Below are positions 1,655 to 17,267 of a stretch of DNA of 64,000 nt, in pieces; position 1 is the first letter of the stretch, and every line of letters begins with the position of its first letter. Source of the stretch: Colwellia psychrerythraea 34H. Its GTDB lineage: Bacteria; Pseudomonadota; Gammaproteobacteria; Enterobacterales; Alteromonadaceae. A program made the position numbers and the translations under genes. Location: positions 4,650,001 to 4,714,000 of the forward strand of contig NC_003910.7 of NCBI RefSeq assembly GCF_000012325.1. Direction: 5' to 3'. The notes under the pieces were generated by a model. The model saw only the letters and a program-made list of their open reading frames with translations. It made no database searches and was not told the DNA's origin.

Positions 1655-1925
1655 CTTCTATATTCTTTCTCTTATAACCAATAAAGTATTTAGCCAAAGC
1701 ACAATTTTAATAGCACTTTGTTATGCCGCATATCATAACCGCGTTGCATCCAAACTTCAGCTTGTTTGCTCAATATCATTAAAGTTATTCTACTAACCTA
1801 CTTCAGATATTAAATGGTTAACATTACACCGCATTACAAAAAAAACTAATGATCAGAATAAAGCGAGAAAGATTGTTATCGGAAATGGTTGCCTATTTCT
1901 CTTTATTTAAAATAGAGTTTACTTT
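1655..1925. other. Divergent intergenic region, left part
   Basis: This stretch lies between the minus-strand unknown gene and the plus-strand efflux operon. It is AT-rich and has no convincing ORF or hairpin. It should carry the promoter of the 1226-1654/rsuA unit. The recognisable signals are further right, at 1926-2030, and belong to the efflux operon. Confidence 0.5.
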
Positions 1926-1964
1926 CGAACATCTTCCCTTTAAAAGCGAACAGTCTTAGTTCTG
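1926..1964 (+). promoter_or_regulatory. Putative activator-binding repeats of the efflux operon
   Basis: CGAACATC at 1926-1933 is repeated 21 bases later as CGAACAGT at 1947-1954, and an inverted half GTTCTG follows at 1959-1964. The motif TTTAAAAGCGAACAGT (1939-1954) recurs with one extra A at 17072-17088, upstream of the PEP-CTERM gene. The position, about 60-90 bases upstream of the -24/-12 site at 2015-2030, is normal for a bacterial enhancer-binding protein. The NtrC-type regulator encoded downstream is the obvious candidate, but this is inferred. Confidence 0.5.
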
Positions 1965-2014
1965 AAAAAAAACACAAAAACAGCAAGCAACTGATTATAT
2001 TGAACTTTAAATTA

Positions 2015-2030
2015 TGGCATGGTTATTTCA
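2015..2030 (+). promoter_or_regulatory. Putative sigma-54 (-24/-12) promoter of the efflux operon
   Basis: TGGCATG, then four bases, then TTTCA resembles the sigma-54 consensus TGGCACG-N4-TTGCA. The -24 GG is intact. At -12, the expected GC reads TC, so the match is imperfect. The predicted transcript would start near 2041, 28 bases before the adaptor gene. An NtrC-type activator gene in the same locus supports the call. Confidence 0.5.
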
Positions 2031-2068: not shown

Positions 2069-3307
2069 ATGAAGATTGCATTAACTAAAAAACAACCTTG
2101 GAAAAAATGGGTCGCTATCGCCAGCTTTACCCTAGTGCTAAGTTACGCCGGTTATAGCGTCAGTGGGAAGGCAACAAAATCTGTCCAATTAAAAGATTTA
2201 AGCTTTCAAACAGTAGTTCAAGGTGATTTAGATATTTATGCTAATGCCTATGGTGAATTTGCTTCAGCAAAAGAACGTTTATTAACGGCGCCTGCATTAG
2301 GTAAGGTCTCTGAAATTTTAGTTCGTCCTGGCACTAAAGTAACACCTGACACTATAATTTTGCATTTATCAAACCCTAAATTAGTACAAGAAGTAAATGC
2401 TGCTAATGGCCAACTTGCTCAACAGTTAGCCCAAAGAGAAGCATTCAAATATGAACAACAAAGTGAACGTTTAAACTATCAAGGTCGCATTGCTGACATA
2501 GAAGCCGAGATTGAAAAAGCTGAGCTTGAGCTCTCGGTGAACATGAATCTGATGGACTTAGGTGTTTCTTCCAAAATAGAATTACAACGCGCTAAATTGG
2601 CCGTGAAACAGGAAAATAAAAGGCTTGGTTTCGAAAAGAAGAAATATAAGCAATTTATTGAAATGCAAAGCCACCAACTCACACAGCGTGATATCACTAT
2701 AAAGCAGCAGCATGCACAAGTTAACTTACTTGAACAACAGCTTGATGATATGAAGGTGAAAGCAGGTATTAATGGTTCACTACAAACCTTAGAAGTTGAA
2801 CTAGGTCAGAGCGTTCAATTAGGTCAATCACTAGCTAAAGTAGGTAGTGATGAAGTATTGATTGCTCGTTTACGCTTACCACAAAACCAAGCAGACCAAA
2901 TAGATATCAATGCTCTAGTCTTAATCGATACCCAAAAGGGCATTATCAAAGGTCACATCACCCGCATCGAAAGTGTTGTTAACAATGGGTCAGTGCTTGC
3001 TGAGGCTGTCATTGATGAAGACTTAACTTCTAATGCACGTCCTGCGTTATCAATATCAGCACAAGTATTTGTCAGGCATCAACAAGAAATCAGCTACATA
3101 GAACAAGTACCAGGGTTTCGCCCACGCAGTAAACAAAGCCTTTTTGTTCGCGACACTAACGACTCATTAGTGCAGAGAGATGTCACCTTTGGCGAGTTAT
3201 CAAAAAATAAATTAGTGATCACTTCAGGATTGAAACCTGGTGAGCAATTAGTGAGTAGCGATACGCAAAAATACACTAAATATCCGCAACTTTTAATTAT
3301 TGAATAA
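2069..3307 (+). CDS. Periplasmic adaptor subunit of an ABC efflux system (HlyD/MacA-like)
   Basis: This 412-residue membrane fusion protein has one N-terminal membrane segment (about residues 13-30). A short lipoyl/barrel half follows, then a coiled-coil hairpin rich in Gln, Glu and Leu (about residues 95-230), and then the second barrel half. It would link the inner-membrane ABC permease to an outer-membrane channel. The ATPase and permease genes follow on the same strand, so the three form one transporter of the MacA/MacB type. No TolC-like gene is nearby, so a shared channel is likely. The substrate cannot be told from sequence. Confidence 0.85.
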   Translation: MKIALTKKQPWKKWVAIASFTLVLSYAGYSVSGKATKSVQLKDLSFQTVVQGDLDIYANAYGEFASAKERLLTAPALGKVSEILVRPGTKVTPDTIILHLSNPKLVQEVNAANGQLAQQLAQREAFKYEQQSERLNYQGRIADIEAEIEKAELELSVNMNLMDLGVSSKIELQRAKLAVKQENKRLGFEKKKYKQFIEMQSHQLTQRDITIKQQHAQVNLLEQQLDDMKVKAGINGSLQTLEVELGQSVQLGQSLAKVGSDEVLIARLRLPQNQADQIDINALVLIDTQKGIIKGHITRIESVVNNGSVLAEAVIDEDLTSNARPALSISAQVFVRHQQEISYIEQVPGFRPRSKQSLFVRDTNDSLVQRDVTFGELSKNKLVITSGLKPGEQLVSSDTQKYTKYPQLLIIE

Positions 3308-3427: not shown

Positions 3428-4162
3428 ATGAAAAATATAGTTACCATGTCAAACATCCACAAACGTTACGATGGTCAGCAAATAGAAACCCATGCTTTAC
3501 AAGGCGTTAGTTTAGAAATAAATCAAGGGGAGTTTGTTGCAATTACCGGTCCTTCTGGTTGCGGTAAATCGACATTGCTTTCTATTATGGGTTTAATGGA
3601 CTCAGCTACAGAGGGGACATATCAACTCGCCAATATTTCGACTGCAGGCTTAAAAGTGGACCAACGCACGCAAATTCGCAATGAGCATATTGGTTATGTT
3701 TTTCAATCATTTAACTTAATAGATAACTTGACTGTATTTGAAAATGTCGCCTTGCCACTTGAACACAGAGGTTGTTCTAAAAGTGAGATAAAAACCCGCG
3801 TTGAGAAAGTATTGACGCAAGTTGATATGTTACATCGCCAACATTATCGTCCAAACCAATTATCTGGCGGTCAACAACAACGTATTGCTATTGCACGTGC
3901 CCTTGTTGGTAAACCTGACCTGATTTTAGTTGATGAGCCAACGGGTAACTTAGACAGTAAGAATGGTGACCAAGTGATGTCACTATTAGAACAACTTAAT
4001 AAAGATGGATCCACCATAGTCATGGTAACCCATGACAGTCGCTATTCACGTTGTGCTAGTCGCCAAATTCAACTGCTCGATGGTCAGATTGTTTCAGAGA
4101 TTAATGCAGGACTAAGTCCACACGTTGAAAACAATGAAAAGTCATTACAGGGGGTTGCATGA
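3428..4162 (+). CDS. ABC transporter ATP-binding protein (MacB/LolD type)
   Basis: This 244-residue ATPase powers the partner permease. Walker A is GPSGCGKST at residues 41-49, the Q-loop lies near YVFQSFN (91-97), the signature LSGGQQQ at 146-152, and Walker B LILVDEP at 166-172. The H-loop is in VTHDSRY. It belongs to the MacB/LolD/FtsE class that works with FtsX-like permeases. Its stop codon overlaps the permease start by four bases (ATGA), so translation is probably coupled. Confidence 0.93.
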   Translation: MKNIVTMSNIHKRYDGQQIETHALQGVSLEINQGEFVAITGPSGCGKSTLLSIMGLMDSATEGTYQLANISTAGLKVDQRTQIRNEHIGYVFQSFNLIDNLTVFENVALPLEHRGCSKSEIKTRVEKVLTQVDMLHRQHYRPNQLSGGQQQRIAIARALVGKPDLILVDEPTGNLDSKNGDQVMSLLEQLNKDGSTIVMVTHDSRYSRCASRQIQLLDGQIVSEINAGLSPHVENNEKSLQGVA

Positions 4163-6651
4163 GTTTATTCAAAAAGTCCTTATATCAAGGAATAACACGG
4201 GTCTTTTCACTGCCCCGCCTAAGCGTGCCACTAATTTTAACACTTGGCTTAACATTAGGCGCAGTATTAAGTGTTATTTCAATTTCATCGACCTTGTTGT
4301 ATCAACCGCTGCAAGGCATAGAAAATGAGGATTCGTTGCAAACCTTTGATTATCGTTTTAAAATGTCAGATACCTTAAGTGTTTCCTATTGGAACATGAA
4401 TCGTTTAGTCGACTTTAGTGAGCAATTTACTGATTTAGGTGAATGGGCTGGTGTTGCACCTTCAGAGCAAGATGTGGTGGTAAATAACACTACGTTTGCA
4501 ACGACGCGTTATGATGCGTCAAGTAACATTCTTTCAGTGTTAGGTAGTCAGCTGTTACTAGGCGATGATGTCACTATTGAGTCAACAGAAAAGTATGTTT
4601 GGATTTCTCAAAGCCTTTGGGAGAATGCTTTTGCCAGCGTTAAATCTGTCATTGGTAAACAAGTAACAATTACCAATAAAAATTATATCATTGCTGGTGT
4701 TATTGAAGACGTAATGGCGATAAAGAGTACCCGTGCAGTTTTACCACAGCAAGTCTGGTTTATCGCCAATTTAGCCAAAGTTAAGACGCAAACTGACTCA
4801 GTTGGTAATATTAGCAACGATATTGATACCCTGATTCTTAAATCGGCTAATGGCCAAGCAAAACTACCATCACTAGCCCAAGTAGATGCTTGGTTAGAAG
4901 ATTATGTCACTCGAAATGTCGATGGCGAGCAAGTGCAAATGTTTTTGGACTTCATGAATAGTACAAAAAAAGAAGCTAAAGGCAGTAATTATCGTAGCAA
5001 CATGTTAGGTGAAACTGAAAGTCTACTCATCGCATTATTTACCGCCGTTATAGGGCTGTTATTAATGGCTACGCTAAACCTACTAAATTTATTCATCGCG
5101 CATTATCAAGGAAGAACTAAAGAATTCGCAATTCAAATAAGCTTAGGTGCAAGCTTAACAAAAGTGAGATTATTGGTATTACTTGAGAACCTACCGAGTT
5201 TTGTTTTAGCGGCCGTAACGGGTTTATTAGTGACTGGTTGGGCGATAAAAAGCTTACCGCTAATCGCGGGTGATAGTTTACCTATGATAGATGCCATTGC
5301 TATAGATAGCACCACCATACTTGCCTCAGTAGCCATTATATTAGCGCTAAGCGTACTATTTAGTTCCCTCGCATTGGTTGATATTGATAAACATGCACTA
5401 GGCAATAACTTAAATAGTAGTGGTAAAGGAATACAGGCACAAAGTAATCAATGGCTGAGCCGAGTATTAATGGTTTTACAACTTTCAATTGCCTCGATAT
5501 TACTAACCGCTTCAGTAATGATAGCGATGCAAAGCTATCAAGCAGTATACCAAGATACCGGTTATGACATAGGCAATAGTTATGAAATTGGCATGACGGT
5601 TAGCGATGAAGAATATATTACTCAATTAAATACCTTTGACTCCTATGGCAAAAGCGAAGCTAAACAATTACTTGATGGTGTGTCAAACTTGATAGAACAA
5701 CAGGTAAGCAATAGCCGAGTTATTATCCCTAACTATGGCCCTTTGTCTGATTCTTTACGTGTAAATGCCTTTCGTGATGAAGAATCAGGAGAGCGCGTTA
5801 TTCACCAAATAAAGACCTTAGGGGCAAAGTATTTTTCAACCTTTAATATCCCTATGTTAGCTGGAGCGAATGTCAGCCAAGCCCAAATTGATAACGATGA
5901 AGATAGAATTGTTATCGATGAAAATATGGCAAAATCCTTATTTTCAAACTTAAGCTACCAAGAGGTTATCGGTAAAACTATTCAAATGAGTCCCGATGGT
6001 TCAACACCACCATCAATTGTTACCGGGGTGGTAGCTAATACTTTAAGCCAAACCGGTATTGCAGAGACCTTAGGTTTACCTTCGGTATATTCTCATCGAG
6101 TAAACCCAGGTTCTACCTTACAATTTACTGTGATGTTACCCGCAGGAAAAACCATTACACCAGCGATGTTAGAAAGCGAAATTAAACGTCAATTCCCACG
6201 TTTAACGAACTTAACCGTACAATCATTAATAGATATTGGGCAGAGACAAACATTAAATCAACGTCTTAGTTTATGGATAGTGCTTGCCATGACGGGTTTA
6301 ACGTTATTTCTTGCTGCTATTGGTGTAGCTGGTCTAACACAAATGACCACAAACCATCGAAAATATGAACTTGCTGTGCGTATGGCAACGGGCGCCAAAC
6401 AAGCTAAATTGGTCAACTTTATTTTAAAAGATGCTTTGTCTATGTTAGTGGTTGGATTAGGTTTAGGTTTTATTATTTCTGTTTTTGGTTATCAACAAGT
6501 CTCACAAAGCTTAGAAATGTTACCTGACTTTAACTGGTTTGCAATGGCCTCATTAGATGCCGCGTTAGTGATTATTGTTATCTTGTCGGTAATTATGCCC
6601 GCATGGCGAGTGATAAGCAGTGACCCAATGCAGGCCTTGCGAGAAGAGTAA
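4159..6651 (+). CDS. ABC transporter permease with two FtsX-like domains
   Basis: The 830-residue permease has an N-terminal membrane segment (about residues 20-45) and a periplasmic MacB-like core domain. Three membrane segments (about 290-410) form the first FtsX domain. A further segment near 435-455, a second periplasmic region, and three C-terminal segments (about 710-820) complete the duplicated layout. Such permeases (the MacB_PCD/FtsX superfamily) handle peptides, lipoproteins or antibiotics by mechanotransmission. It lacks its own ATPase domain and uses the preceding gene product. A strong terminator follows at 6747. Confidence 0.88.
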   Translation: MSLFKKSLYQGITRVFSLPRLSVPLILTLGLTLGAVLSVISISSTLLYQPLQGIENEDSLQTFDYRFKMSDTLSVSYWNMNRLVDFSEQFTDLGEWAGVAPSEQDVVVNNTTFATTRYDASSNILSVLGSQLLLGDDVTIESTEKYVWISQSLWENAFASVKSVIGKQVTITNKNYIIAGVIEDVMAIKSTRAVLPQQVWFIANLAKVKTQTDSVGNISNDIDTLILKSANGQAKLPSLAQVDAWLEDYVTRNVDGEQVQMFLDFMNSTKKEAKGSNYRSNMLGETESLLIALFTAVIGLLLMATLNLLNLFIAHYQGRTKEFAIQISLGASLTKVRLLVLLENLPSFVLAAVTGLLVTGWAIKSLPLIAGDSLPMIDAIAIDSTTILASVAIILALSVLFSSLALVDIDKHALGNNLNSSGKGIQAQSNQWLSRVLMVLQLSIASILLTASVMIAMQSYQAVYQDTGYDIGNSYEIGMTVSDEEYITQLNTFDSYGKSEAKQLLDGVSNLIEQQVSNSRVIIPNYGPLSDSLRVNAFRDEESGERVIHQIKTLGAKYFSTFNIPMLAGANVSQAQIDNDEDRIVIDENMAKSLFSNLSYQEVIGKTIQMSPDGSTPPSIVTGVVANTLSQTGIAETLGLPSVYSHRVNPGSTLQFTVMLPAGKTITPAMLESEIKRQFPRLTNLTVQSLIDIGQRQTLNQRLSLWIVLAMTGLTLFLAAIGVAGLTQMTTNHRKYELAVRMATGAKQAKLVNFILKDALSMLVVGLGLGFIISVFGYQQVSQSLEMLPDFNWFAMASLDAALVIIVILSVIMPAWRVISSDPMQALREE

Positions 6652-6850: not shown

Positions 6851-8203
6851 ATGACAAACGCCACCATTTTAATTGCTGATGATGATGAAGACATTCGCTT
6901 AGCATTAAACTTATTACTTAGTGCACAGGGCTATCAGATTATTGAAGCGGCTAACGCTAAAGAAATTATCATAGAAAGTAACCGACAACAGCCAGATTTA
7001 GTATTGTTGGATATGAACTTTTCTAGAGATACCACTAGCGGTCAAGAAGGTTTAGCCATTTTAGAACAGTTACAGCCATTAAATATCCCAGTGATTTTAA
7101 TGACAGCGTGGGGTTCAATTGAATTAGCGGTAGAAGGCTTACAAAAGGGCGCCAATGATTTTATAGAAAAACCATGGAACAAGCTTAAGCTACTAAACAG
7201 TATTAAACAGCAATTAAGCTTTTCTCGGGCAAAAGAACAAAACCAAGGTTATCGACAATTACTTGCCGGCGATAATAAAAAGGCTTGGGTTTGTCTATCA
7301 GAAAGTATGCAGGCTATTGAAACGCTAGTCGCGCAAATAGCTCCAACAGATGCCAACATCTTAATTTTAGGTGAAAATGGCACAGGTAAATCATTGCTTG
7401 CTGAGCGAATTCATCAGTTATCATCACGCCAGCAAGCTCCACTTATCGCGGTTAATATGGCGGCAATTCCTGATAATTTATTTGAAAGTGAACTCTTTGG
7501 TCATCAAAAAGGCGCCTTTACTGACGCTAAACAAAATCGTGTTGGCCGATTTCAACTCGCTGATAAAGGGACTTTATTTTTTGATGAGATAGGATCTTTA
7601 CCCCTAACACTTCAGCCTAAATTATTACGAGTGTTAGAAACGGGTCACTATGAGATTTTAGGTTCGAGCCAAACACAAGTTGCTGATGTGCGTTTAATTA
7701 GTGCAACCAATGCCAACCTCAATCAACTGATAAGTGAACAGGCGTTTCGCCAAGATTTATTATACCGTTTAAATACAATTGTGATTACTATTCCACCCTT
7801 GCGTGAACGACTCGAAGATATTCCAGGCTTGGCTAATTGCTTTATCACTAAATTCAGTGAGAAGTACCGGAAACAAGCATTAAACATCAGTCCATGTGCG
7901 CTCAGTAAATTAAAACAACACAATTGGCCGGGCAACATACGTGAATTTAGTCATGTGATTGAACGTGCAGTTTTACTCACCAGCGGCGGAGAAATAACAG
8001 CACAGCAATTATTACTAGAGAACGCCGATAGCACTAATGATACGGTACTGTTACAACCACTTGAACAAGCAGAGAAACAGTTGATTGAAAAAGCGATGAC
8101 AGTCACCGGTGGGCAAGTGATAGAAGCAGCAAAATTACTCGATATATCTCGTAATGCACTTTATCGACGTTTAGAAAAGTTTGCCATTCATCATGTCGAA
8201 TAA
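6851..8203 (+). CDS. NtrC-family sigma-54-dependent response regulator
   Basis: The receiver domain carries the acidic cluster ADDDED and phosphoacceptor LLDMNF. A central AAA+ domain follows, with Walker A GENGTGKS, the sigma-54 contact loop GAFTDA (a common variant of GAFTGA) and Walker B LFFDE. The C-terminus is a Fis-type helix-turn-helix (AAKLLDISRNALYRRL). It should activate sigma-54 promoters, most simply the one before the adaptor gene. I chose ATG 6851 because GGA lies 7 bases upstream and the receiver fold starts at once; an ATG at 6839 adds four residues. It overlaps or abuts the kinase gene. Confidence 0.92.
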   Translation: MTNATILIADDDEDIRLALNLLLSAQGYQIIEAANAKEIIIESNRQQPDLVLLDMNFSRDTTSGQEGLAILEQLQPLNIPVILMTAWGSIELAVEGLQKGANDFIEKPWNKLKLLNSIKQQLSFSRAKEQNQGYRQLLAGDNKKAWVCLSESMQAIETLVAQIAPTDANILILGENGTGKSLLAERIHQLSSRQQAPLIAVNMAAIPDNLFESELFGHQKGAFTDAKQNRVGRFQLADKGTLFFDEIGSLPLTLQPKLLRVLETGHYEILGSSQTQVADVRLISATNANLNQLISEQAFRQDLLYRLNTIVITIPPLRERLEDIPGLANCFITKFSEKYRKQALNISPCALSKLKQHNWPGNIREFSHVIERAVLLTSGGEITAQQLLLENADSTNDTVLLQPLEQAEKQLIEKAMTVTGGQVIEAAKLLDISRNALYRRLEKFAIHHVE

Positions 8204-9527
8204 TACCAATAAATCTAATAAACAGTTAAGCTTGAAATTCAGTCATGAACAGTGGCTGATCTTTGGCTTAGCAACTACATTAATTGTTATATTGGCCTTG
8301 ACCATTGCACTCACTTATACCCTTGCCTGGAGTAAATTGGCGACAGTCACGTTAGTGTTTTTTTTATCTTACCCGCTCATTTGGCTTGCTTGGCGTAGTT
8401 ATAATTTTTGGAAACAAGCCATCATGCAACTTACTACCTATACACAAGTTGTTCGGGAGGGTGAAACAAATTTACGCTTCAAAGTGCAACATCAAGACAA
8501 TTTATTAGCTGAGTTACAGCAAGAAATATCAGCCCTAGCCTTAGGTAACGCACATAAGTTGCAACAAAACCAAACACTGGAAAATGTCCTGAGCCATATA
8601 CTTGATTCCTGGCCTATACCTGTGTGTTTATTTGATGAGAATAATCAATTAAGCTACCGCAATATCGCTATGAAAGAAAAAATCCAACAACCTATGCTTA
8701 TTGGCACAACTGCTGAAGACTTAGGTTTTGTTATTGAAAATGGTAATTTAACCCACAGCCAGTTCAATCAGCAATGGCAATGTCAGAGTATCAGTTACCT
8801 CTTTCAACAAAAAAAATGTCATATTTTTTCTGCTTTAGATATCTCTCAACCACTACATCAACAACAAAGTATTACTCAGCAAAATCTTATTCGGGTATTA
8901 GCTCATGAGCTTCGTAATTCTTTAACACCCATGGCATCGATGGCTGACACGCTGTTATGCAATGACAGCTTTAACGAAGATCAAGTACGCTTAGTCTTAA
9001 GTCGGATCAGACAGCGAAGTAATCGTTTACTTAGTTTTATTGAACAGTACAGTCAGTTGAGTCAATTACCTGCTCCGCAATCGAGTTGGTTTGAATTTAA
9101 TGATTTACTTGAAGAAGCTAAGTCCATGATTACCGAGCCTTGTACAATAAACTATCAAGGCAGTAATCAATGTTTTGCTGATGAGCAACAAATGGCACAA
9201 ATATTAATTAATATTTTCAAGAATGCTCAAGAAGCTTGTGATGAAGAACACTGTGAAATTGACGTTAGCTTATACTACCGACAAGAAAACTCACAAGGTT
9301 ACCAACAGACCAAGCAAGTAATTGATATTAGAGATAATGGCCCTGGTTTTGCTAACCTTGATAATGCTTTGACACCTTTTTACACTACTAAGAGTCATGG
9401 CTCAGGTATTGGCTTATCACTGTGCGCTGAAATCACTCGTAACCATGGTGGTGAATTCACCTTAGAAAATACTGAACATGGCGCAAGAATTAGGATGGCA
9501 TGGCCGGTAGACAATAAAGCTCACTAA
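8193..9527 (+). CDS. Membrane sensor histidine kinase
   Basis: Two membrane segments (about residues 22-44 and 50-66) are separated by only a few residues, so there is almost no periplasmic sensor; the signal is probably sensed in or near the membrane. A PAS-like region follows, then the dimerisation helix with the phospho-acceptor His in LAHELRNSLTP, the N box NIFKNAQEA, and the ATP-lid motifs DNGPGF and GSGIGLSL. The gene overlaps the end of the regulator gene by 11 bases, so the two form one signalling pair. A TTG at 8181 would extend it by four residues, but the ATG is preferred. Confidence 0.9.
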   Translation: MSNNTNKSNKQLSLKFSHEQWLIFGLATTLIVILALTIALTYTLAWSKLATVTLVFFLSYPLIWLAWRSYNFWKQAIMQLTTYTQVVREGETNLRFKVQHQDNLLAELQQEISALALGNAHKLQQNQTLENVLSHILDSWPIPVCLFDENNQLSYRNIAMKEKIQQPMLIGTTAEDLGFVIENGNLTHSQFNQQWQCQSISYLFQQKKCHIFSALDISQPLHQQQSITQQNLIRVLAHELRNSLTPMASMADTLLCNDSFNEDQVRLVLSRIRQRSNRLLSFIEQYSQLSQLPAPQSSWFEFNDLLEEAKSMITEPCTINYQGSNQCFADEQQMAQILINIFKNAQEACDEEHCEIDVSLYYRQENSQGYQQTKQVIDIRDNGPGFANLDNALTPFYTTKSHGSGIGLSLCAEITRNHGGEFTLENTEHGARIRMAWPVDNKAH

Positions 9528-9732: not shown

Positions 9733-12021
9733 ATGACTATTCAATGTTCAAAAAATCTTATCGCTATAGCCATTGCTTCAGCATTGTCGTTACCTGTTTC
9801 AGCAGCTGACAAACAAGAAAGCGAAAGCACTATGGAAGAAGTCACTGTTGTGGCTAAAAAATTATCTCATGCCAATCATGTGATTGAGTCATCAATGATA
9901 AAACAGCAATCACCTGCGAGTAGCATACTCGCGATTATGGACAACCTACCCGGTATTAGCATCAATGAAGGCGATGCTTTTGGTGGTGATGATTGGTCAA
10001 CATCGATTACGATGCGCGGCTTTACTATTGATGGTAATCAGCAGCAACTTGGAATGACAATTGACGGTATCCCAAATGGTGGTTCTAACTATGGCGGTGG
10101 CGCAAAAGCAAATCGTTATTTAGACAGTGAAAATATGCGTACCATTGAAGTATCACAAGGAACTTCTGACATTTCATCTGCCTCATTAGAAGCATTGGGA
10201 GGTACTTTCAATTTTGTCAGTGCAGATCCTGCTTTTGAAGAAACAACAACATTGGCCTATACCGATGGCGATCATGATGCATCTCGTTATTTCATTCGTC
10301 ATGACACCGGACGCATTTTTGATAATACCTACGCTTACGCGAGCTATTCATCCACTTCCACTAGCCGCTGGGTTGGCGAAGGTTCAAACGGAGGTATGCA
10401 AAGAGAGCACGCTGAGGTTAAGTTCATTACTGAGCTAGGTAACTTAAGTATTACCGGCCGTTTATCTTATGACGATGCCGATGAAGATAATTACAATTCG
10501 GTTAGTTTAGAGCAGTTCAATCAAACACCTGACTGGGATCAGTTAACATGGAACTGGACCGGTACTCCCCATCTTGATCAAATGTTTGCCGAGGGTTGGT
10601 CGACCTTACGTGAAAATACTTTAGGTTATGTGAAATTTGATTATCAACTGTCAGACAACTTCTCTTTTCAAATTACCCCCTACTTTCATAAAAATAAAGG
10701 TCGAGGTGATTGGATCCCTCCTTATTTAGTGTCTGCGGTTGATGATGAAGGTAATCCCGTCAATCAAGGTGGTTCAATAGGCTCTACTTATGGCTTTACC
10801 GATCAAAATGGTACGCCATTAGCCCCTGCTGCGGGTTGTGAGCAAAGTTTTACTTGGCCATGGGATTCTGGCCCAGGTTTACACCCTGCCTGTTATAGTG
10901 ATAGCGCTGTGCCAGTCATGTCATATCGTCATACTCATTATGAAAAAGATCGTGTAGGTTTAACTGCAAACGCACAATGGTCTATTGCCATGAACGATAT
11001 TAAATTTGGTTTATGGGCAGAATCAAATGAGCGTAATGAATCGAGAGATTGGCATAAAGTGATTGATGCACGTGTTTATCATCACTTTGATGCAACACCT
11101 TATTGGACACAATATAGTAATGAATTTCAAACCGACACTTTAAAGTTCTATCTACAGGACACACTAGATTTTGGCGATCTCTCATTGAATATCGGCGCCC
11201 AAAAATACTTAGTAGATATTGAAAAAACGGATGGCTTTACCAACCAACAAACGGGCAAAGTTAATAGTGACTCAGATGTACTCTTTAGTACTGGAGCCAT
11301 TTACCAAATAAACAGTAATATAGAATTATTTGCCGGTTACAGTGAGAACTTTTCAGCCATTAAAGATGGTGTGTTAGAAAGGGAAGCTTCGACTCTTGAA
11401 AACATCGAACCAGAAACAGCTGAGAATATTGATTTAGGCCTGCGCTACAACACTGAAGATATTAGCTTTTCGGCCACTTACTACACCATTGATTTTGAGA
11501 ATAGAATTACCTTCATAGCCCCTGGAAGTGATTCTGATGGTATTGATTACACCATTGGTACTAATGGCTCTTACCTCAATGTTGGTGGTATTGAGTCCGA
11601 TGGTTTTGAACTCAGTGTAAACTACCGCTTAAATGATCAGTGGAGTTTATATTCATCTTATACCAATAATGATTCACGTTATGTCGGTGATGCCCCAGGT
11701 TTTACCGCCGGTGATAAAGTCATCGATTCCGTGGATGATATGTTTGTCTTATCAAGTGATTACACTAAAGGTGATTTCCGCCTTGGTGCATCGGGTAAAT
11801 ATACTGGAGAACGTGGTGATGCGCCTTCTTACACTACATTTGATTTCAATGCCGGTTACTTTGTTCCTTTTGACGGTCAAGCAATTAGCTCAATTGATAT
11901 AGCTTTCGTTGTTACCAACATTACCGATGAAAGTTATTTATCAACGGGAACAGGCAATGGCACTACCTTCTTTATTGGTGCACCTCGAACGGCCTCAATG
12001 ACCTTTACTGCCAGCTTTTAA
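9733..12021 (+). CDS. TonB-dependent outer-membrane receptor, Pho-regulated
   Basis: The 762-residue receptor has a signal peptide (cleavage near VSAAD, about residues 24-25), a TonB-box-like EEVTVVAK (about 36-43), a plug domain with TIDGIPNG, and a 22-strand-type barrel ending in Phe (MTFTASF), as outer-membrane barrels do. It moves a ligand into the periplasm using TonB energy. The Pho boxes upstream and the two phosphatase genes downstream suggest a phosphorus-containing ligand rather than an iron chelate; this is inference. GGGG at 9725-9728 provides the ribosome binding site. Confidence 0.9.
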   Translation: MTIQCSKNLIAIAIASALSLPVSAADKQESESTMEEVTVVAKKLSHANHVIESSMIKQQSPASSILAIMDNLPGISINEGDAFGGDDWSTSITMRGFTIDGNQQQLGMTIDGIPNGGSNYGGGAKANRYLDSENMRTIEVSQGTSDISSASLEALGGTFNFVSADPAFEETTTLAYTDGDHDASRYFIRHDTGRIFDNTYAYASYSSTSTSRWVGEGSNGGMQREHAEVKFITELGNLSITGRLSYDDADEDNYNSVSLEQFNQTPDWDQLTWNWTGTPHLDQMFAEGWSTLRENTLGYVKFDYQLSDNFSFQITPYFHKNKGRGDWIPPYLVSAVDDEGNPVNQGGSIGSTYGFTDQNGTPLAPAAGCEQSFTWPWDSGPGLHPACYSDSAVPVMSYRHTHYEKDRVGLTANAQWSIAMNDIKFGLWAESNERNESRDWHKVIDARVYHHFDATPYWTQYSNEFQTDTLKFYLQDTLDFGDLSLNIGAQKYLVDIEKTDGFTNQQTGKVNSDSDVLFSTGAIYQINSNIELFAGYSENFSAIKDGVLEREASTLENIEPETAENIDLGLRYNTEDISFSATYYTIDFENRITFIAPGSDSDGIDYTIGTNGSYLNVGGIESDGFELSVNYRLNDQWSLYSSYTNNDSRYVGDAPGFTAGDKVIDSVDDMFVLSSDYTKGDFRLGASGKYTGERGDAPSYTTFDFNAGYFVPFDGQAISSIDIAFVVTNITDESYLSTGTGNGTTFFIGAPRTASMTFTASF

Positions 12022-12046
12022 AGCTTAATAGACAACATTGAAAACA

Positions 12047-12071
12047 AAGCCAAGTAGTTATTACTTGGCTT
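12047..12071 (+). terminator. Hairpin between receptor and phosphatase genes
   Basis: AAGCCAAGTA (12047-12056) pairs perfectly with TACTTGGCTT (12062-12071) around a 5-base loop. The following CTTTCATTT is only a weak T tract, so the hairpin may end part of the transcripts or protect the receptor mRNA rather than stop all read-through to the phosphatase genes. Confidence 0.6.
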
Positions 12072-12105
12072 CTTTCATTTAAACTAATTGATAACGGGTC
12101 TACAT

Positions 12106-13266
12106 ATGTTAAAAAATCTCTATTTAATCATGCTACTGCTAACCTGCTTTAGTATTAACGTTAATGCAGCAACCGATACTTCTGCCATTGATAATTCAGC
12201 AACTGGGAAGAATTTAGTGTTAGTCACCATTGATGGTCTTCGTTGGCAGGAGTTATTTTCTGGCGCAGATGCTGCTTTACTCAATAATAAAAAATTTGTT
12301 CGAAAAGGTCATCACCTCCAGGAGAAATTTTGGCATGACAATGAAGAAAATCGTCGCCAATTATTAATGCCATTTTTTTGGAATACTGTGGTAAAAGAAG
12401 GTATGGTCATTGGCAATCGTAAGATAGGTTCAAACATGTCGATTGCTAACCAATGGCACTTCTCCTACCCAGGTTACAGTGAGATTTTTACTGGTGTGGT
12501 TGATCACTCCATCAATAGCAATAAAAAAAAATTAAACCCACAAATTTCTTTTTTAGAATGGCTTAATACTAAAAATGAATACCAACACAAACTTGCAGCA
12601 TTTGGCAGTTGGGATGTATTTCCGTATATTTTAAATAAAGATCGTAGCCAGCTTTATATTAATGCAGGATTTGATTCAGCCGAAGGTTATGCTTTGTCAG
12701 AGCAGGCCAAGTTACTCAATAATTTACAAACAGAAATTCCCAGCCCTTGGCACAATGTTCGCTTAGATAGTTTCACTTATCGTTACGCTAAAGATTATTT
12801 ATTAACGGTTAAACCTAAAGTCATGATAATCGCTTTAGGTGAAACAGATGACTTTGCACACGACGGCCATTACGACAGTTACTTAAACTCTGCTCATCAA
12901 ACGGATAAGTTTATCGCTGACTTATGGCACACCCTACAAACAACGCCAGGCTATCAAGATAATACCGTATTAATGATCACCACTGATCATGGCCGAGGTA
13001 GTAATGCCGATGATTGGCAACACCATGCTTCAAAACTAGCGGTACAAGGTTATATGAAAAACCTCGAAGCGTTTCCAAATGGCATAGTGGGCTCAGAAAA
13101 TATTTGGTTTGCTGCCATGGGCCCTGGTGTGATTGCACGTGGTGAAATAAAAACCACACAAGAAGTTAAGCAAAAACAAATTGCTGCTACCGCATTGACC
13201 TTGTTAGGTGAGGACCCCAAGGTATTCAATCCAAATGCAGGCTCTGTTATTAAGGAGGTTTTTTAA
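12106..13266 (+). CDS. Secreted alkaline-phosphatase-superfamily hydrolase
   Basis: The signal peptide is MLKNLYLIMLLLTCF and a following small-residue region, so the enzyme acts in the periplasm. The alkaline-phosphatase-superfamily metal sites are visible: TIDGLRW near the mature N-terminus, GETDDFAHDGHYD, and TTDHGRG. The nucleophile is probably in the FSYPGYSE region. Substrate specificity (phosphomonoester, diester or sulfate) cannot be read from the sequence. Pho boxes upstream favour a phosphate ester. ATG 12106 is chosen over a TTG at 12088 because the signal peptide starts there. It overlaps the next gene by one base (TAATG). Confidence 0.8.
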   Translation: MLKNLYLIMLLLTCFSINVNAATDTSAIDNSATGKNLVLVTIDGLRWQELFSGADAALLNNKKFVRKGHHLQEKFWHDNEENRRQLLMPFFWNTVVKEGMVIGNRKIGSNMSIANQWHFSYPGYSEIFTGVVDHSINSNKKKLNPQISFLEWLNTKNEYQHKLAAFGSWDVFPYILNKDRSQLYINAGFDSAEGYALSEQAKLLNNLQTEIPSPWHNVRLDSFTYRYAKDYLLTVKPKVMIIALGETDDFAHDGHYDSYLNSAHQTDKFIADLWHTLQTTPGYQDNTVLMITTDHGRGSNADDWQHHASKLAVQGYMKNLEAFPNGIVGSENIWFAAMGPGVIARGEIKTTQEVKQKQIAATALTLLGEDPKVFNPNAGSVIKEVF

Positions 13267-14375
13267 TGAAATCATCATCATTTGTTCTACTATGTATGAC
13301 CAGCTTTAGCCTATTCATAACCGCACAAGCTACGCAATTAAATCAGTTACTTCACTTAGATAGGTCAGATAAGTTAAAGAACTCACCACAAAAAATTCTT
13401 TTTGGCTCCTGTTCACATCAAGACAAAGCTATGCCTATTTTAAAGTCTATTAATAATGAGGCTGCAGATTTATTCATTTTTCTGGGTGATAATATTTATG
13501 GTGATACAAAAAACATGCAAGACATGGCCGACAAATATCAACGTCTAGGTAATAATCCAGACATACAAGCACTGCGCTCAGCCACACCAACCATCGCCAT
13601 TTGGGATGACCATGACTTTGGTGAAAATGATGCAGGTGCTGAATATCCTCAAAAAGAACAATCAAGAAAGTTAATGTTAGACTTCTGGCAAGAACCACAG
13701 AATTCAGCCAGATATACTCAAAAAAATGGTATTTACACTGCTTATATGTATGGAGAAGAACACAATAAAGTGCATGTTATTTTACCTGATTTACGCTGGA
13801 ACAGAGATAAATTGAGCAGTGTCGATAGACTAAATTACCAAACAAAACGTAAGCCGAAGAATATGGGACCTTATAGTCCTAGCTCACTAAAAAACGCCTC
13901 AATGATTGGTGAAACTCAATGGCAATGGTTAGAAAAAGAATTACAAAAACCATCAAAAATTAAAGTGATTGCCTCTAGTTTACAGCTATTACCTGAATTT
14001 ACTGGTTGGGAGTCTTGGGCCAATTTTCCTCATGACAGAGAACGCCTTTTTGCTTTAATTAAAAAGCACCAGGTTAATGGCATCATAATCATTAGTGGTG
14101 ATACCCATTGGGGAGAAATGTCTAAGGTATCAGACAAGCTAGATTATCCATTATGGGAAGTAACAAGTTCAGGCTTAACGGAGGAGTGGAAGGAAGTAAG
14201 CCCTAACAAACATCGCATAGGAAACTTTATTAACAAAGTAAATTACGGTGAGTTACTCATTGATTGGCAGCAAGTCGACCCGCAAATAACGCTGAACTTA
14301 AAAGACGTAGATGGCAAAGTATTTAGTCAGCAAAAAATGCCGTTATCTTCGATTAGTCCATACCATAAACAATAA
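13266..14375 (+). CDS. PhoD-like metallophosphatase
   Basis: The 369-residue protein has a signal peptide (about residues 1-22). PhoD-type metal-binding motifs occur in order: FGSCSHQ, FLGDNIYGD, WDDHDFGENDAG and ISGDTHWGE. PhoD enzymes cleave phosphomono- and diesters with calcium and iron, and are typically exported and induced by phosphate starvation. AGGAGGT lies 7 bases before the ATG, a strong ribosome binding site. It overlaps the preceding hydrolase gene by one base, so the two are co-translated. Together with the TonB receptor it forms a phosphorus-scavenging unit. Confidence 0.88.
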   Translation: MKSSSFVLLCMTSFSLFITAQATQLNQLLHLDRSDKLKNSPQKILFGSCSHQDKAMPILKSINNEAADLFIFLGDNIYGDTKNMQDMADKYQRLGNNPDIQALRSATPTIAIWDDHDFGENDAGAEYPQKEQSRKLMLDFWQEPQNSARYTQKNGIYTAYMYGEEHNKVHVILPDLRWNRDKLSSVDRLNYQTKRKPKNMGPYSPSSLKNASMIGETQWQWLEKELQKPSKIKVIASSLQLLPEFTGWESWANFPHDRERLFALIKKHQVNGIIIISGDTHWGEMSKVSDKLDYPLWEVTSSGLTEEWKEVSPNKHRIGNFINKVNYGELLIDWQQVDPQITLNLKDVDGKVFSQQKMPLSSISPYHKQ

Positions 14376-15121: not shown

Positions 15122-15667
15122 TTAATTTCGAGAAGGGAATACCCCTTGTAGTGCAATAATATAATTAACCACCTGAAAAGGCTGAACATTATTTACTGGC
15201 TGACTATTTCCAATATCTGCCTCTTGTACATTAATTGCAGCAGCTGCCATATCAGCATCAGCATCAGCATTAGAATAGGTAGCAGAAGAAACTCCTGCAT
15301 CATTTGACCAAACATTACCAACAGCTGTATTAGCATTGCCAGCACCACCTTTACATTTTGCCAAGGCAGCAACTGAATGATTGTGTGCAGGTAAATTCCC
15401 TTGGGCTAAAGTATTTGATTCTGTACCACTTTTTTCACCTAATCTCCTACTAGATAACCCTGGCCCATTCCCATTATGCATAGCAACTCGCCCACGTAAA
15501 TCAGGCAAACCAAAAGATGTTCGACCATCACCACCATACGTTGTACCTAAAATTGAAAAAAGTGCAGTATTAGAGCTTATTGATAGTAATTGACCATCAC
15601 ACAGCGCCCAACCACGCGGGGCAAAGTTACCACCAAACATTAAAATTTGACCGATAAATGGTTCCAT
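15122..15667 (-). CDS. Tail-collar domain protein (microcystin-dependent/MdpB type)
   Basis: The protein (181 residues) has the whole MdpB-type layout: an N-terminal MEPFIGQILMFGGNFAPRGW, the collar motif CDGQLL, YGGDGRTSFGLPDLRGR, and a C-terminal NYIIALQGVFPSRN. This domain is named from phage short tail fibres, but it is common as a stand-alone bacterial family near DUF6916 and GNAT genes. No other phage structural gene is present here. The middle (about residues 100-155) is rich in Ala, Asn and Asp, as a variable surface region would be. Its biological role in free-standing form is not established. Confidence 0.85.
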   Translation of the reverse strand: MEPFIGQILMFGGNFAPRGWALCDGQLLSISSNTALFSILGTTYGGDGRTSFGLPDLRGRVAMHNGNGPGLSSRRLGEKSGTESNTLAQGNLPAHNHSVAALAKCKGGAGNANTAVGNVWSNDAGVSSATYSNADADADMAAAAINVQEADIGNSQPVNNVQPFQVVNYIIALQGVFPSRN

Positions 15668-15756: not shown

Positions 15757-16152
15757 TTAAGTTAATAAACAAAATGTTGAAACATAGTGTTGTTTCATTG
15801 ATTGACTCGCTTCAATATTCATCTTCTGTGTTTGTAGTGTCGAAAGATGAGTCACTGAATAAATATCATCTGTGAAATTTGGACTATCACTGGTAAAGAC
15901 TAATTGAAATTGTTCCATACCATCATGTTCAGGCCCAACCTCAACCTTTTTCAGGGTTAACCAATGACTGCCATTTTTATTGCGTAATAAAAACGTATCA
16001 TTAATTATATTTTGAAATTTTTGTTGAGTAGATTGCTGACTTGATTGTCCATAACTAAGGTCAATGCCACTTGGTTGTGCGATAGCATTAGGCAATGCAG
16101 TCGCAACTATTGCGCCGGAGATTGATAATAAAAAATGTCGTCGATTTATCAT
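15757..16152 (-). CDS. Tat-exported DUF6916-like protein
   Basis: The 131-residue protein starts MINRRHFLLSIS with twin arginines before a hydrophobic stretch and an Ala-rich AIAQ cleavage region, so export by the Tat pathway is likely. The mature part (FLLRN, LTLKKVEVGPE, FQLVFTS, YSVTHLSTLQTQKMNIE) resembles the small DUF6916 beta-domain that often accompanies MdpB-type collar genes; I place it there from memory of the family and the neighbourhood. The collar gene follows 89 bases downstream on the same strand. Function is unknown. Confidence 0.6.
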   Translation of the reverse strand: MINRRHFLLSISGAIVATALPNAIAQPSGIDLSYGQSSQQSTQQKFQNIINDTFLLRNKNGSHWLTLKKVEVGPEHDGMEQFQLVFTSDSPNFTDDIYSVTHLSTLQTQKMNIEASQSMKQHYVSTFCLLT

Positions 16153-16265: not shown

Positions 16266-16961
16266 TTATTTAATACGAGCTTTTAATCCTGCTAGAGAAA
16301 GAACAAACAATAGCAGGGTACTTGGTTCAGGCACTGGTATTGGTCCTGGTCCGCTATCTTCAGTCACGATATTTAACGATGAATAAATTAGGTGATAGCC
16401 ATTAGTTGCAGTTTCACTTACTTGCCCACCCATTAGAGCGGTTTGTAACCCCGCACCGCCGATATCCAAATCAACAGAAAAGTTACCATCAGCAAGGTCA
16501 GCAAAAAATGTAGCCCCTAAGTTAAAGGTGTAAACACTATACTGAGCATCTGTTGCCCCGCCGCCACTTTCAAACATTGCATCCAATGCTACGGTAGTAT
16601 CAATACTACCTAATGAAAATGCATCTAACTGGCTGCCAGATGCAGCAGAATCATGATCCCAAATACCAAATGAAAAGCTCGCACTTAAAATGGTGTCTGT
16701 AATTGCGCCATAATTAAATAGCCAATTAACATTAGCTGGGTCGCCAAAGAGTTCGCTACCGATACCAGCATCAAATGGGGCGGGCTGCCCTGCTTGGGCA
16801 GTTAGAATATCAGGAATAAGGGCATAGCTATTCCCATCGACAAGCCCAGAAGTAGCATTACCTAAGTCTGAAGTAATTAAGCCAGCATTTGCTGTTGGCG
16901 ATAAAAACATAAGTGAGATTAGTAAAGGTGAAAATAAATTTAACAAGTTTGACGGCTTCAT
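16266..16961 (-). CDS. PEP-CTERM sorting-domain protein
   Basis: The 231-residue protein has a signal peptide (about residues 1-26, ending TANA) and a C-terminal PEP-CTERM signal: VPEPSTLLLF, a hydrophobic stretch and a basic end (LKARIK). Proteins of this kind are sorted by exosortase (EpsH/XrtA) and released to the surface or matrix. The middle is rich in Gly, Ala, Ser and Asp, as expected for a secreted beta-rich protein, but has no known catalytic domain. No exosortase is in the window, so it must be elsewhere. A -24/-12 promoter (17019-17034) precedes it, as is typical of PEP-CTERM genes under PrsK/PrsR-type control. Confidence 0.88.
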   Translation of the reverse strand: MKPSNLLNLFSPLLISLMFLSPTANAGLITSDLGNATSGLVDGNSYALIPDILTAQAGQPAPFDAGIGSELFGDPANVNWLFNYGAITDTILSASFSFGIWDHDSAASGSQLDAFSLGSIDTTVALDAMFESGGGATDAQYSVYTFNLGATFFADLADGNFSVDLDIGGAGLQTALMGGQVSETATNGYHLIYSSLNIVTEDSGPGPIPVPEPSTLLLFVLSLAGLKARIK

Positions 16962-17018: not shown

Positions 17019-17034
17019 TGCATAAAACATACCG
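17019..17034 (-). promoter_or_regulatory. Putative sigma-54 (-24/-12) promoter of the PEP-CTERM gene
   Basis: On the minus strand the sequence reads CGGTATG-TTTT-ATGCA, with GG at -24 and GC at -12 exactly 10 bases apart, as in the consensus TGGCACG-N4-TTGCA. The predicted transcript starts near 17008, about 47 bases before the PEP-CTERM start codon. Activator-like repeats lie 28-55 bases further upstream. Sigma-54 control of PEP-CTERM genes is established in other bacteria. Confidence 0.65.
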
Positions 17035-17061
17035 GGCTATAGTTATCAGTAGCTTATAAAA

Positions 17062-17088
17062 CGAACAGTTATTTAAAAAGCGAACAGT
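17062..17088. promoter_or_regulatory. Putative activator-binding repeats of the PEP-CTERM gene
   Basis: CGAACAGT occurs at 17062-17069 and again at 17081-17088, two helical turns apart (19 bases). TTTAAAAAGCGAACAGT at 17072-17088 matches 1939-1954 upstream of the efflux operon except for one extra A. The site lies between the PEP-CTERM gene and the divergent gene at 17268, and could serve either. Confidence 0.55.
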
Positions 17089-17267
17089 GTAAAAAAACCT
17101 GACAGTTAGTTTCAACAGGTAAAAGCGTCATTATTAATCTATGCCTAACAATTGACTACAATGAGTAGTAAATGGCTTGACTCAAGGTTCACACAAAAAA
17201 TAATGGCGATGAAATATCAGGTCAATATCTAGATTTACTCTAAAATGTGAAAAAGAAAGGAACACTT

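Follow-up and report, generated by a model that had tools for sequence, protein, structure and literature searches.

Genes and features of the window

The window, a stretch of 64,000 nucleotides from Colwellia psychrerythraea 34H, corresponds to G000:C1:4650001-4714000 of a genome that consists of a single contig of 5,373,180 bases. It contains an efflux operon, which codes for a periplasmic adaptor, an ABC ATPase, a permease, a response regulator and a histidine kinase, and, on the opposite strand, a gene for a PEP-CTERM protein (Table 1). All five genes of the efflux operon were present as a group in 17 of the 19 operons that were fetched; contig ends cut the remaining two. The region downstream of the kinase (9733-14375) carries genes for a TonB-dependent receptor, a sulfatase/phosphodiesterase-like protein and a PhoD-like protein; a TonB receptor is also present near the efflux operon in G011 and G012. 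The PEP-CTERM gene is adjoined by genes for a phage tail collar-domain protein (15122-15667) and a DUF6916 protein (15757-16152).

Table 1. Features of the efflux and PEP-CTERM loci, with positions counted from the first base of the window
Feature	Position	Strand	Evidence and remarks
Upstream activator element, efflux operon	1924..1952	+	TTCGAACA-N11-AAANCGAACA; direct CGAACA boxes at 1926-1931 and 1947-1952, 21 bp apart
IHF-like site, efflux operon	1984..1996	+	YAANNNNYTGATW (CAAGCAACTGATT); between boxes and -24
-24/-12-like promoter, efflux operon	2015..2030	+	TGGCATGGTTATTTCA; -12 is TTTC, not TTGC; conserved in alignment; GG 63 bp after boxes
HlyD/RND-type periplasmic adaptor	2069..3307	+	PF13437 1.4e-11; TIGR01730 4.9e-22 (below model cut-off)
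MacB/LolD-type ABC ATPase	3428..4162	+	Best NCBIfam match DarD 4e-78, below cut-off
ADOP/MacB-type permease	4159..6651	+	TIGR03434 1.6e-96, below cut-off; MacB_PCD and FtsX above Pfam cut-off
NtrC-type response regulator, GAFTDA loop	6851..8203 (alternative start 6839)	+	Receiver, Sigma54_activat, HTH_8; putative CGAACA-box binder
Histidine kinase	8181..9527	+	HisKA, HATPase_c; putative partner of the regulator
PEP-CTERM protein gene, placed outside the regulon	16266..16961	-	PF07589 6.9e-06, TIGR02595 5.5e-04, both above cut-off
-24/-12-like promoter, PEP-CTERM gene	17019..17034	-	CGGTATGTTTTATGCA; normal GC at -12
IHF-like site, PEP-CTERM promoter	17044..17056	-	TAAGCTACTGATA, read by eye; TAAGCTATTGATA in ortholog
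CGAACA-N13-CGAACA look-alike, judged chance	17062..17086	+	Both boxes broken in the only ortholog
PEP-CTERM activator box, predicted PrsR site	17088..17104	-	TGTCAGGTTTTTTTACA; fits motif 1 of Haft et al. 2006 by its text description

The same genome encodes four more efflux systems (L116, L117, L118 and L119), each of which comprises an adaptor, an ATPase, a regulator and a kinase. Different repeats or palindromes (e.g., TGTCCG..CGGACA, TTTCCCATNNATGGGAAA) are located upstream of these systems.

Conservation of the efflux upstream element

The upstream regions of 21 adaptor genes from the genus, including that of the window, were aligned. They aligned on TTTCGAACA..TTAAAAGCGAACA, a CTGATT-like element and TTGGCACnnnnnTTTCATTA, and an exact CGAACA-N14/15-CGAACA pair was present in 20 of the 21 regions. 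An earlier note on this DNA had described an activator-like direct repeat upstream of the efflux operon, and the alignment bears this out: judged by its conservation, CGAACA-N15-CGAACA is a real element. The exception was G014, an operon remnant in which the first box and the -24 element are damaged; its adaptor match stops at residue 135, and residues 271-441 of the kinase come next. G019, which has no adaptor match, has lost the operon, and TTGGCA was not seen there; the boxes persist next to the same pair of neighbour genes. G014 (locus L134) and G019 (locus L136, 5377-5403) are fossil loci in which the operon has been reduced or deleted and the boxes remain or decay.

The box pair by itself is common. 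CGAACA-N9-20-CGAACA matched the genome nine times, compared with 33 matches of the reversed control, and the N15 pair occurred at 55 places in 31 of the 39 genus genomes, with most reversed controls being commoner. The full pattern, searched in the genome with up to two mismatches and with the spacing fixed at N15, so that sites with other spacing could escape, gave exactly two sites, both perfect, and seven for the reversed control. One was the efflux site and the other preceded a gene for a protein of the metallo-beta-lactamase (MBL) fold, the latter being the one of the nine genomic pairs found to have the full arrangement there.

Other pairs of the genome (L002-L007) were rejected; they had no TTGGCA..TTYC in the stretch inspected. 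L002, L003, L004 and L007 lie inside open reading frames (ORFs), and L006 ends 24 bp before an ORF. L005 (G000:C1:3441034-3441063, minus strand) is a triple direct repeat, CGAACATAGTAT, between ORFs. Besides the efflux and MBL sites, the remnant L136 and four others of the 55 genus pairs were inspected, and those four (L131 at 3177, L140, L148 and L149) showed no promoter of the TTGGCA..TTYC type in the stretch inspected. L148 has two overlapping CGAACA pairs (2964-3021) between a DeoR-like ORF and a 510-amino-acid ORF resembling glycerol-3-phosphate dehydrogenase (both named by eye); these pairs are probably the operator of another regulator.

An MBL-fold gene as the probable second target

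The second site of the full pattern is located at 1.32 Mb of the genome, compared with 4.65 Mb for the efflux locus, and precedes a gene for a protein of 330 amino acids. The protein matched PF00753 with 58.7 bits (cut-off, 22.7), and its N terminus is hydrophobic and, by eye, resembles a signal peptide. It is thus predicted to be a secreted enzyme of the MBL fold; a PDB sequence search matched no chain at 1e-3.

A search of the genus gave 15 matches; 2 short or weak ones were dropped, which left 10 orthologs and 3 distant homologues for the analysis. The orthologs (at least 60%) were distributed over 10 of the 39 genomes, all of them among the 20 genomes with the efflux regulator (hypergeometric, 2.9e-4). 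Every one of the 10 orthologs was preceded by the boxes with a spacing of N14 or N15, by TGGCAY..TTYC and by an element reading TTGA or CTGA, and the three distant homologues (45-51%) had no pair within 1.5 kb upstream. On the strength of this conserved arrangement, the true second target of the efflux regulator would be the MBL-fold gene and not the PEP-CTERM gene.

Spacing, IHF-like sites and the -12 element

The -24/-12-like promoter claimed in the earlier note for the efflux operon was conserved in the genus alignment. At the efflux and MBL promoters the -24 element was TGGCAY or TGGTAY, and the -12 element followed at a fixed position, GG+12. The -12 element had been called imperfect in the window, and this applies to every scored relative in the clade of the regulator: the G was missing in all 30 scored efflux promoters, which had TC or CC in place of GC, and TTYC was found in all 10 MBL promoters. 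The genome has one sigma-54 gene, rpoN.

The distance from the boxes to the GG was determined for 20 efflux and 10 MBL promoters of the genus. It was 62-65 bp for the efflux promoters and 72-74 or 82-84 bp for the MBL promoters, i.e., it changed in steps of about one helical turn. A pattern based on the IHF consensus, YAAN4YTGATW, was present between the boxes and the -24 element in 20 of these 30 promoters (0.23 expected from shuffles) and missing in 10; the stricter TTGATW form was present in 11 (0.19 expected from shuffles). Both scans were restricted to promoters with N14/15 and a pyrimidine at -13, a position that was left free when the clade promoters described below were scored.

Co-segregation with the regulator clade

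Orthologs of the regulator (at least 74%) and full-length adaptors (at least 71%) were found in the same 20 of the 39 genus genomes, the regulator of G029 being partial. For a broader comparison, promoters upstream of the adaptors of paralogous and orthologous operons were scored on their -24 element plus a single adjoining T or CT, with positions -13 and -12 free. A tree was calculated for 133 regulators from 142 loci, nine having been dropped because they were missing or shorter than 380 amino acids; 94 of the 133 had a scored promoter, and the 39 without one were left out. The 94 promoters comprised 49 with GC at -12, 30 with YC (22 TC, 8 CC), 14 with GT and 1 with TT.

All 30 YC promoters belonged to a single clade of 34 regulators (support, 0.915); for the other four members of this clade no promoter was scored. 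Outside the clade, YC was absent from all 64 scored promoters. The strict box pair showed a similar distribution, being found 27 times among the clade's 30 scored promoters (25 with N15, one with N14 and one, L249, with N12) and never among the 64 outside. The three remaining members, L248, L254 and L262, had single or inverted boxes. Records in the clade are named Colwellia, Cognaticolwellia, Litorilituus, Thalassotalea, Thalassomonas and Pseudoalteromonas. In a separate comparison the pair was present in 17 of 17 ortholog upstream regions and in 1 of 64 others; this one, L122, is an ortholog operon with its regulator on another contig, which leaves 0 of 63. Part of the co-segregation is due to inheritance of a syntenic operon from common ancestors. 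These counts are also not all independent, as some genomes contributed to both sets of loci.

Because the box element and the regulator clade co-segregate, the NtrC-type gene at the efflux locus is the likely activator of the efflux operon, as the earlier note had assumed. That the boxes, the -12 type and the regulator clade go together is also the main argument that the regulator probably binds the efflux boxes. All 34 members of the clade have GAFTDA in place of the GAFTGA loop. An explanation of the odd -12 element by this loop alone was rejected, since GAFTDA regulators also go with 46 of the 49 promoters scored as GC.

A proposed two-target regulon of the sigma-54 type

Taken together, the data very probably reflect a sigma-54 regulon with two targets, the efflux operon and the MBL-fold gene, which would be controlled by the NtrC-type regulator of the cluster from promoters with a clade-fixed, non-canonical -12 element, the PEP-CTERM gene remaining outside. 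The kinase would sense an envelope or toxic-compound signal and phosphorylate the regulator, which may then occupy one face of the DNA at the two CGAACA boxes. IHF would bend the DNA between boxes and promoter, and sigma-54 RNA polymerase would open a promoter whose -12 element, TTYC, lacks the usual G. Switching on the ABC efflux operon together with the distant MBL-fold gene could allow the cell to pump out and hydrolyse a toxic compound.

The -12 element without G departs from the sigma-54 consensus, and another type of promoter is therefore possible, in which TTGGCA..TTYC at both targets is read by a different sigma factor, with the NtrC-type protein working independently of sigma-54. Replacement of the G at -13 in 30 of 30 scored clade promoters would agree with this, as would the GAFTDA loop, since GAFTGA is called invariant in PMC12316311 and no RpoN was found in a pull-down with VfmH, another GAFTDA regulator (PMC10714721). 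However, GAFTDA, for which DVU2106 serves as an example, is also listed among the loop variants expected to keep activity (PMC4641369), and related GAFTDA regulators mostly have a normal GC in their scored promoters. Changes of one base in GC or GG are known from characterised sigma-54 promoters (PMC7910581); it is the fixation of such a change throughout a clade that seems unusual. The fixed spacing of 12 bp from the GG, the enhancer distance, the helical phasing and the IHF-like site are all features of sigma-54 promoters, and a different sigma factor is considered unlikely.

Control of the PEP-CTERM gene

The sigma-54 regulon proposed here differs in its second member from the one put forward in the earlier note, according to which a single enhancer-binding protein controls the efflux operon and the PEP-CTERM gene through CGAACA boxes. 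All letters and coordinates given for the two loci were correct. TTTAAAAGCGAACAGT at 1939-1954 recurs as TTTAAAAAGCGAACAGT at 17072-17088, with 16 letters in common and one extra A, and CGAACA starts at 1926 and 1947 and at 17062 and 17081. The recurrence holds for these letters; it does not hold for the element, which differs in period, orientation, score and conservation. The period is 21 at the efflux locus (N15) and 19 at the PEP-CTERM locus (N13), and the efflux pair is oriented towards its own promoter while the other is oriented away from the PEP-CTERM gene.

A two-box matrix was built from 24 training sites, with the sites of this genome left out, and 255,518 bases of the genome were scanned. 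The two real sites scored 38.1 and 36.2, compared with 18.4 for the PEP-CTERM pair (17.8 with 28 training sites) and 11.9 for the next best. In 64 Mb of simulated sequence 55 sites reached at least 18.4, i.e., 0.055 per 64 kb, a value that is slightly low as the cut was 18.4 and not 17.8, and that is given before allowing for the free choice of motif. An origin other than chance is well founded for the efflux pair with its exact N14/N15 repeat in 20 of 21 regions, and not convincing for the PEP-CTERM pair.

One clear ortholog of the PEP-CTERM gene was present among the 38 other genus genomes (G012, 83% identity), four weaker matches (E, 2.6e-4 to 5.7e-4) being left out of the count. In this ortholog the two boxes read CAAACA and TGAACA. 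The activator box and the -24/-12 promoter were kept except for the last promoter base, with CGGTATGTTTTATGC identical, and the same genome keeps the efflux regulator and the efflux boxes. Conservation in relatives, whose absence the earlier note had named as refuting its proposal, is lacking for the PEP-CTERM half of the proposed link. The genome has 16 PEP-CTERM genes by PF07589 (Haft et al. [2006; PMC1569441] list 19 for this species by TIGR02595), and the CGAACA pair was absent upstream of the 15 others; with 1 of 16 it was rejected as a general PEP-CTERM box.

A different box precedes these genes. A sequence near TGTCAGnnTTTTTTACA (up to four mismatches) was found upstream of 15 of the 16, perfect in the case of the window gene, and L017 was the only one without it within 1.5 kb upstream of the PEP-CTERM domain. 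With a matrix from 13 other PEP-CTERM genes, the box at 17104-17088 was the best of the window (24.4; next best, 13.4); it overlaps the end of the recurring motif by one base. Similar -24/-12-like sequences were seen by eye upstream of other PEP-CTERM genes. Haft et al. (PMC1569441) described a 17-nucleotide motif ending in TTTACA, followed by a spacer and a -24/-12 promoter, from pooled genes that included this species, and proposed PrsR as its binder; their table lists CPS_5030 as the PrsR of C. psychrerythraea 34H. A predicted site of this type precedes the window gene, a 17-nucleotide box ending in TTTACA with a downstream -24/-12 promoter that has GC, and the gene lacks a conserved N14/15 pair. 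The PrsR of this genome is L030 (TIGR02915, 784.7 bits; cut-off, 502.6). The window regulator was rejected as PrsR, as it reached only 382.1 bits and stands separately on the tree. By these sequence features the PEP-CTERM gene would lie outside the efflux regulon and fits the published PrsR/PrsK regulon, which accounts for it and involves neither the CGAACA boxes nor the efflux regulator. RpoN dependence of a PEP-CTERM gene has been shown in Aquincola (PMC9850573).

The CGAACA pair in front of the PEP-CTERM gene looks like a chance resemblance. It could instead be a weak, young and strain-specific second input on top of PrsR control: the site outscored everything in 255 kb except the two real sites, and with an activator box on one side and a sigma-54-type promoter on the other, its position is one at which new sites could be recruited. 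Its spacing and phase are wrong for this, however, and at 0.055 per 64 kb several look-alikes of equal score are expected per genome, so that such an input is very unlikely. Shared control of the efflux operon and the PEP-CTERM gene by one enhancer-binding protein is very unlikely, since the common letters and the next-best score are outweighed by the N13 spacing, in contrast to N14 or N15 at every one of the 30 efflux and MBL sites of the genus (L249, with N12, is outside this set), by the reversed orientation, by a distance of 28 bp from the GG against 62-84, by the mutation of both boxes in the only ortholog, by the absence of the pair from the 15 other genes and by the expected rate of chance sites.

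Among the publications listed in searches on the regulon and on Colwellia with PEP-CTERM, no title or abstract opening described an efflux/PEP-CTERM link, and efflux or an ABC transporter is not mentioned in the available part of PMC3162934.

Relation to known systems and variants of the -12 element

In place of the unsupported efflux/PEP-CTERM link, the comparison of many genomes points to one two-component system that would govern both an efflux pump and a hydrolase predicted to be secreted. This pairing suggests a two-step detoxification response in Colwellia and its relatives, the enzyme half having been searched for within the genus. The operon resembles tripartite efflux systems of the MacAB type in its adaptor, ATPase and MacB-type permease domains, but has a separate ATPase, an ADOP-type permease and a regulator and kinase within the cluster. 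First evidence tying sigma-54 to the family of MacB/FtsX-type ABC exporters was claimed in 2025 (PMC12316311). That study is a broad computational enrichment, and the boxes, the cognate regulator and the MBL-fold target are not mentioned in the available part of it.

Like NtrC-type systems with an upstream activator sequence, IHF and a sigma-54 promoter, the system described here has a regulator with Receiver, AAA+ and Fis-type HTH domains, a putative enhancer some 62-84 bp before the -24 element, an IHF-like site and TTGGCAY at -24. It differs from them in the GAFTDA loop of the regulator, the direct-repeat boxes and the TTYC fixed at -12 in the clade. The promoters thus form a natural set of the sigma-54 type in which the GC of the -12 element has been replaced clade-wide, and the requirement for GC can be tested on evolved, presumably working promoters. 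If they are rpoN dependent, the activator and not the -12 consensus would license opening, and the set would be a natural series on how sigma-54 reads the -12 element.

It is possible, and proposed here tentatively, that enhancer-binding proteins of one lineage evolved jointly with sigma-54 promoters from which the G of the -12 GC has been lost for good, with TTYC fixed in the efflux promoters of the clade and in the second target, and TTGT in a paralogous clade. The latter comprises 12 regulators (support, 1.0) with TTGT at -12 throughout, namely L117 of this genome and the genus loci L210-L212, L215-L219 and L222-L224. Two further cases of TTGT occur elsewhere on the tree (L170 and L299). 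Three relatives of the regulator, L266, L275 and L290, have GALSDS or GALTDS in place of GAFTDA.
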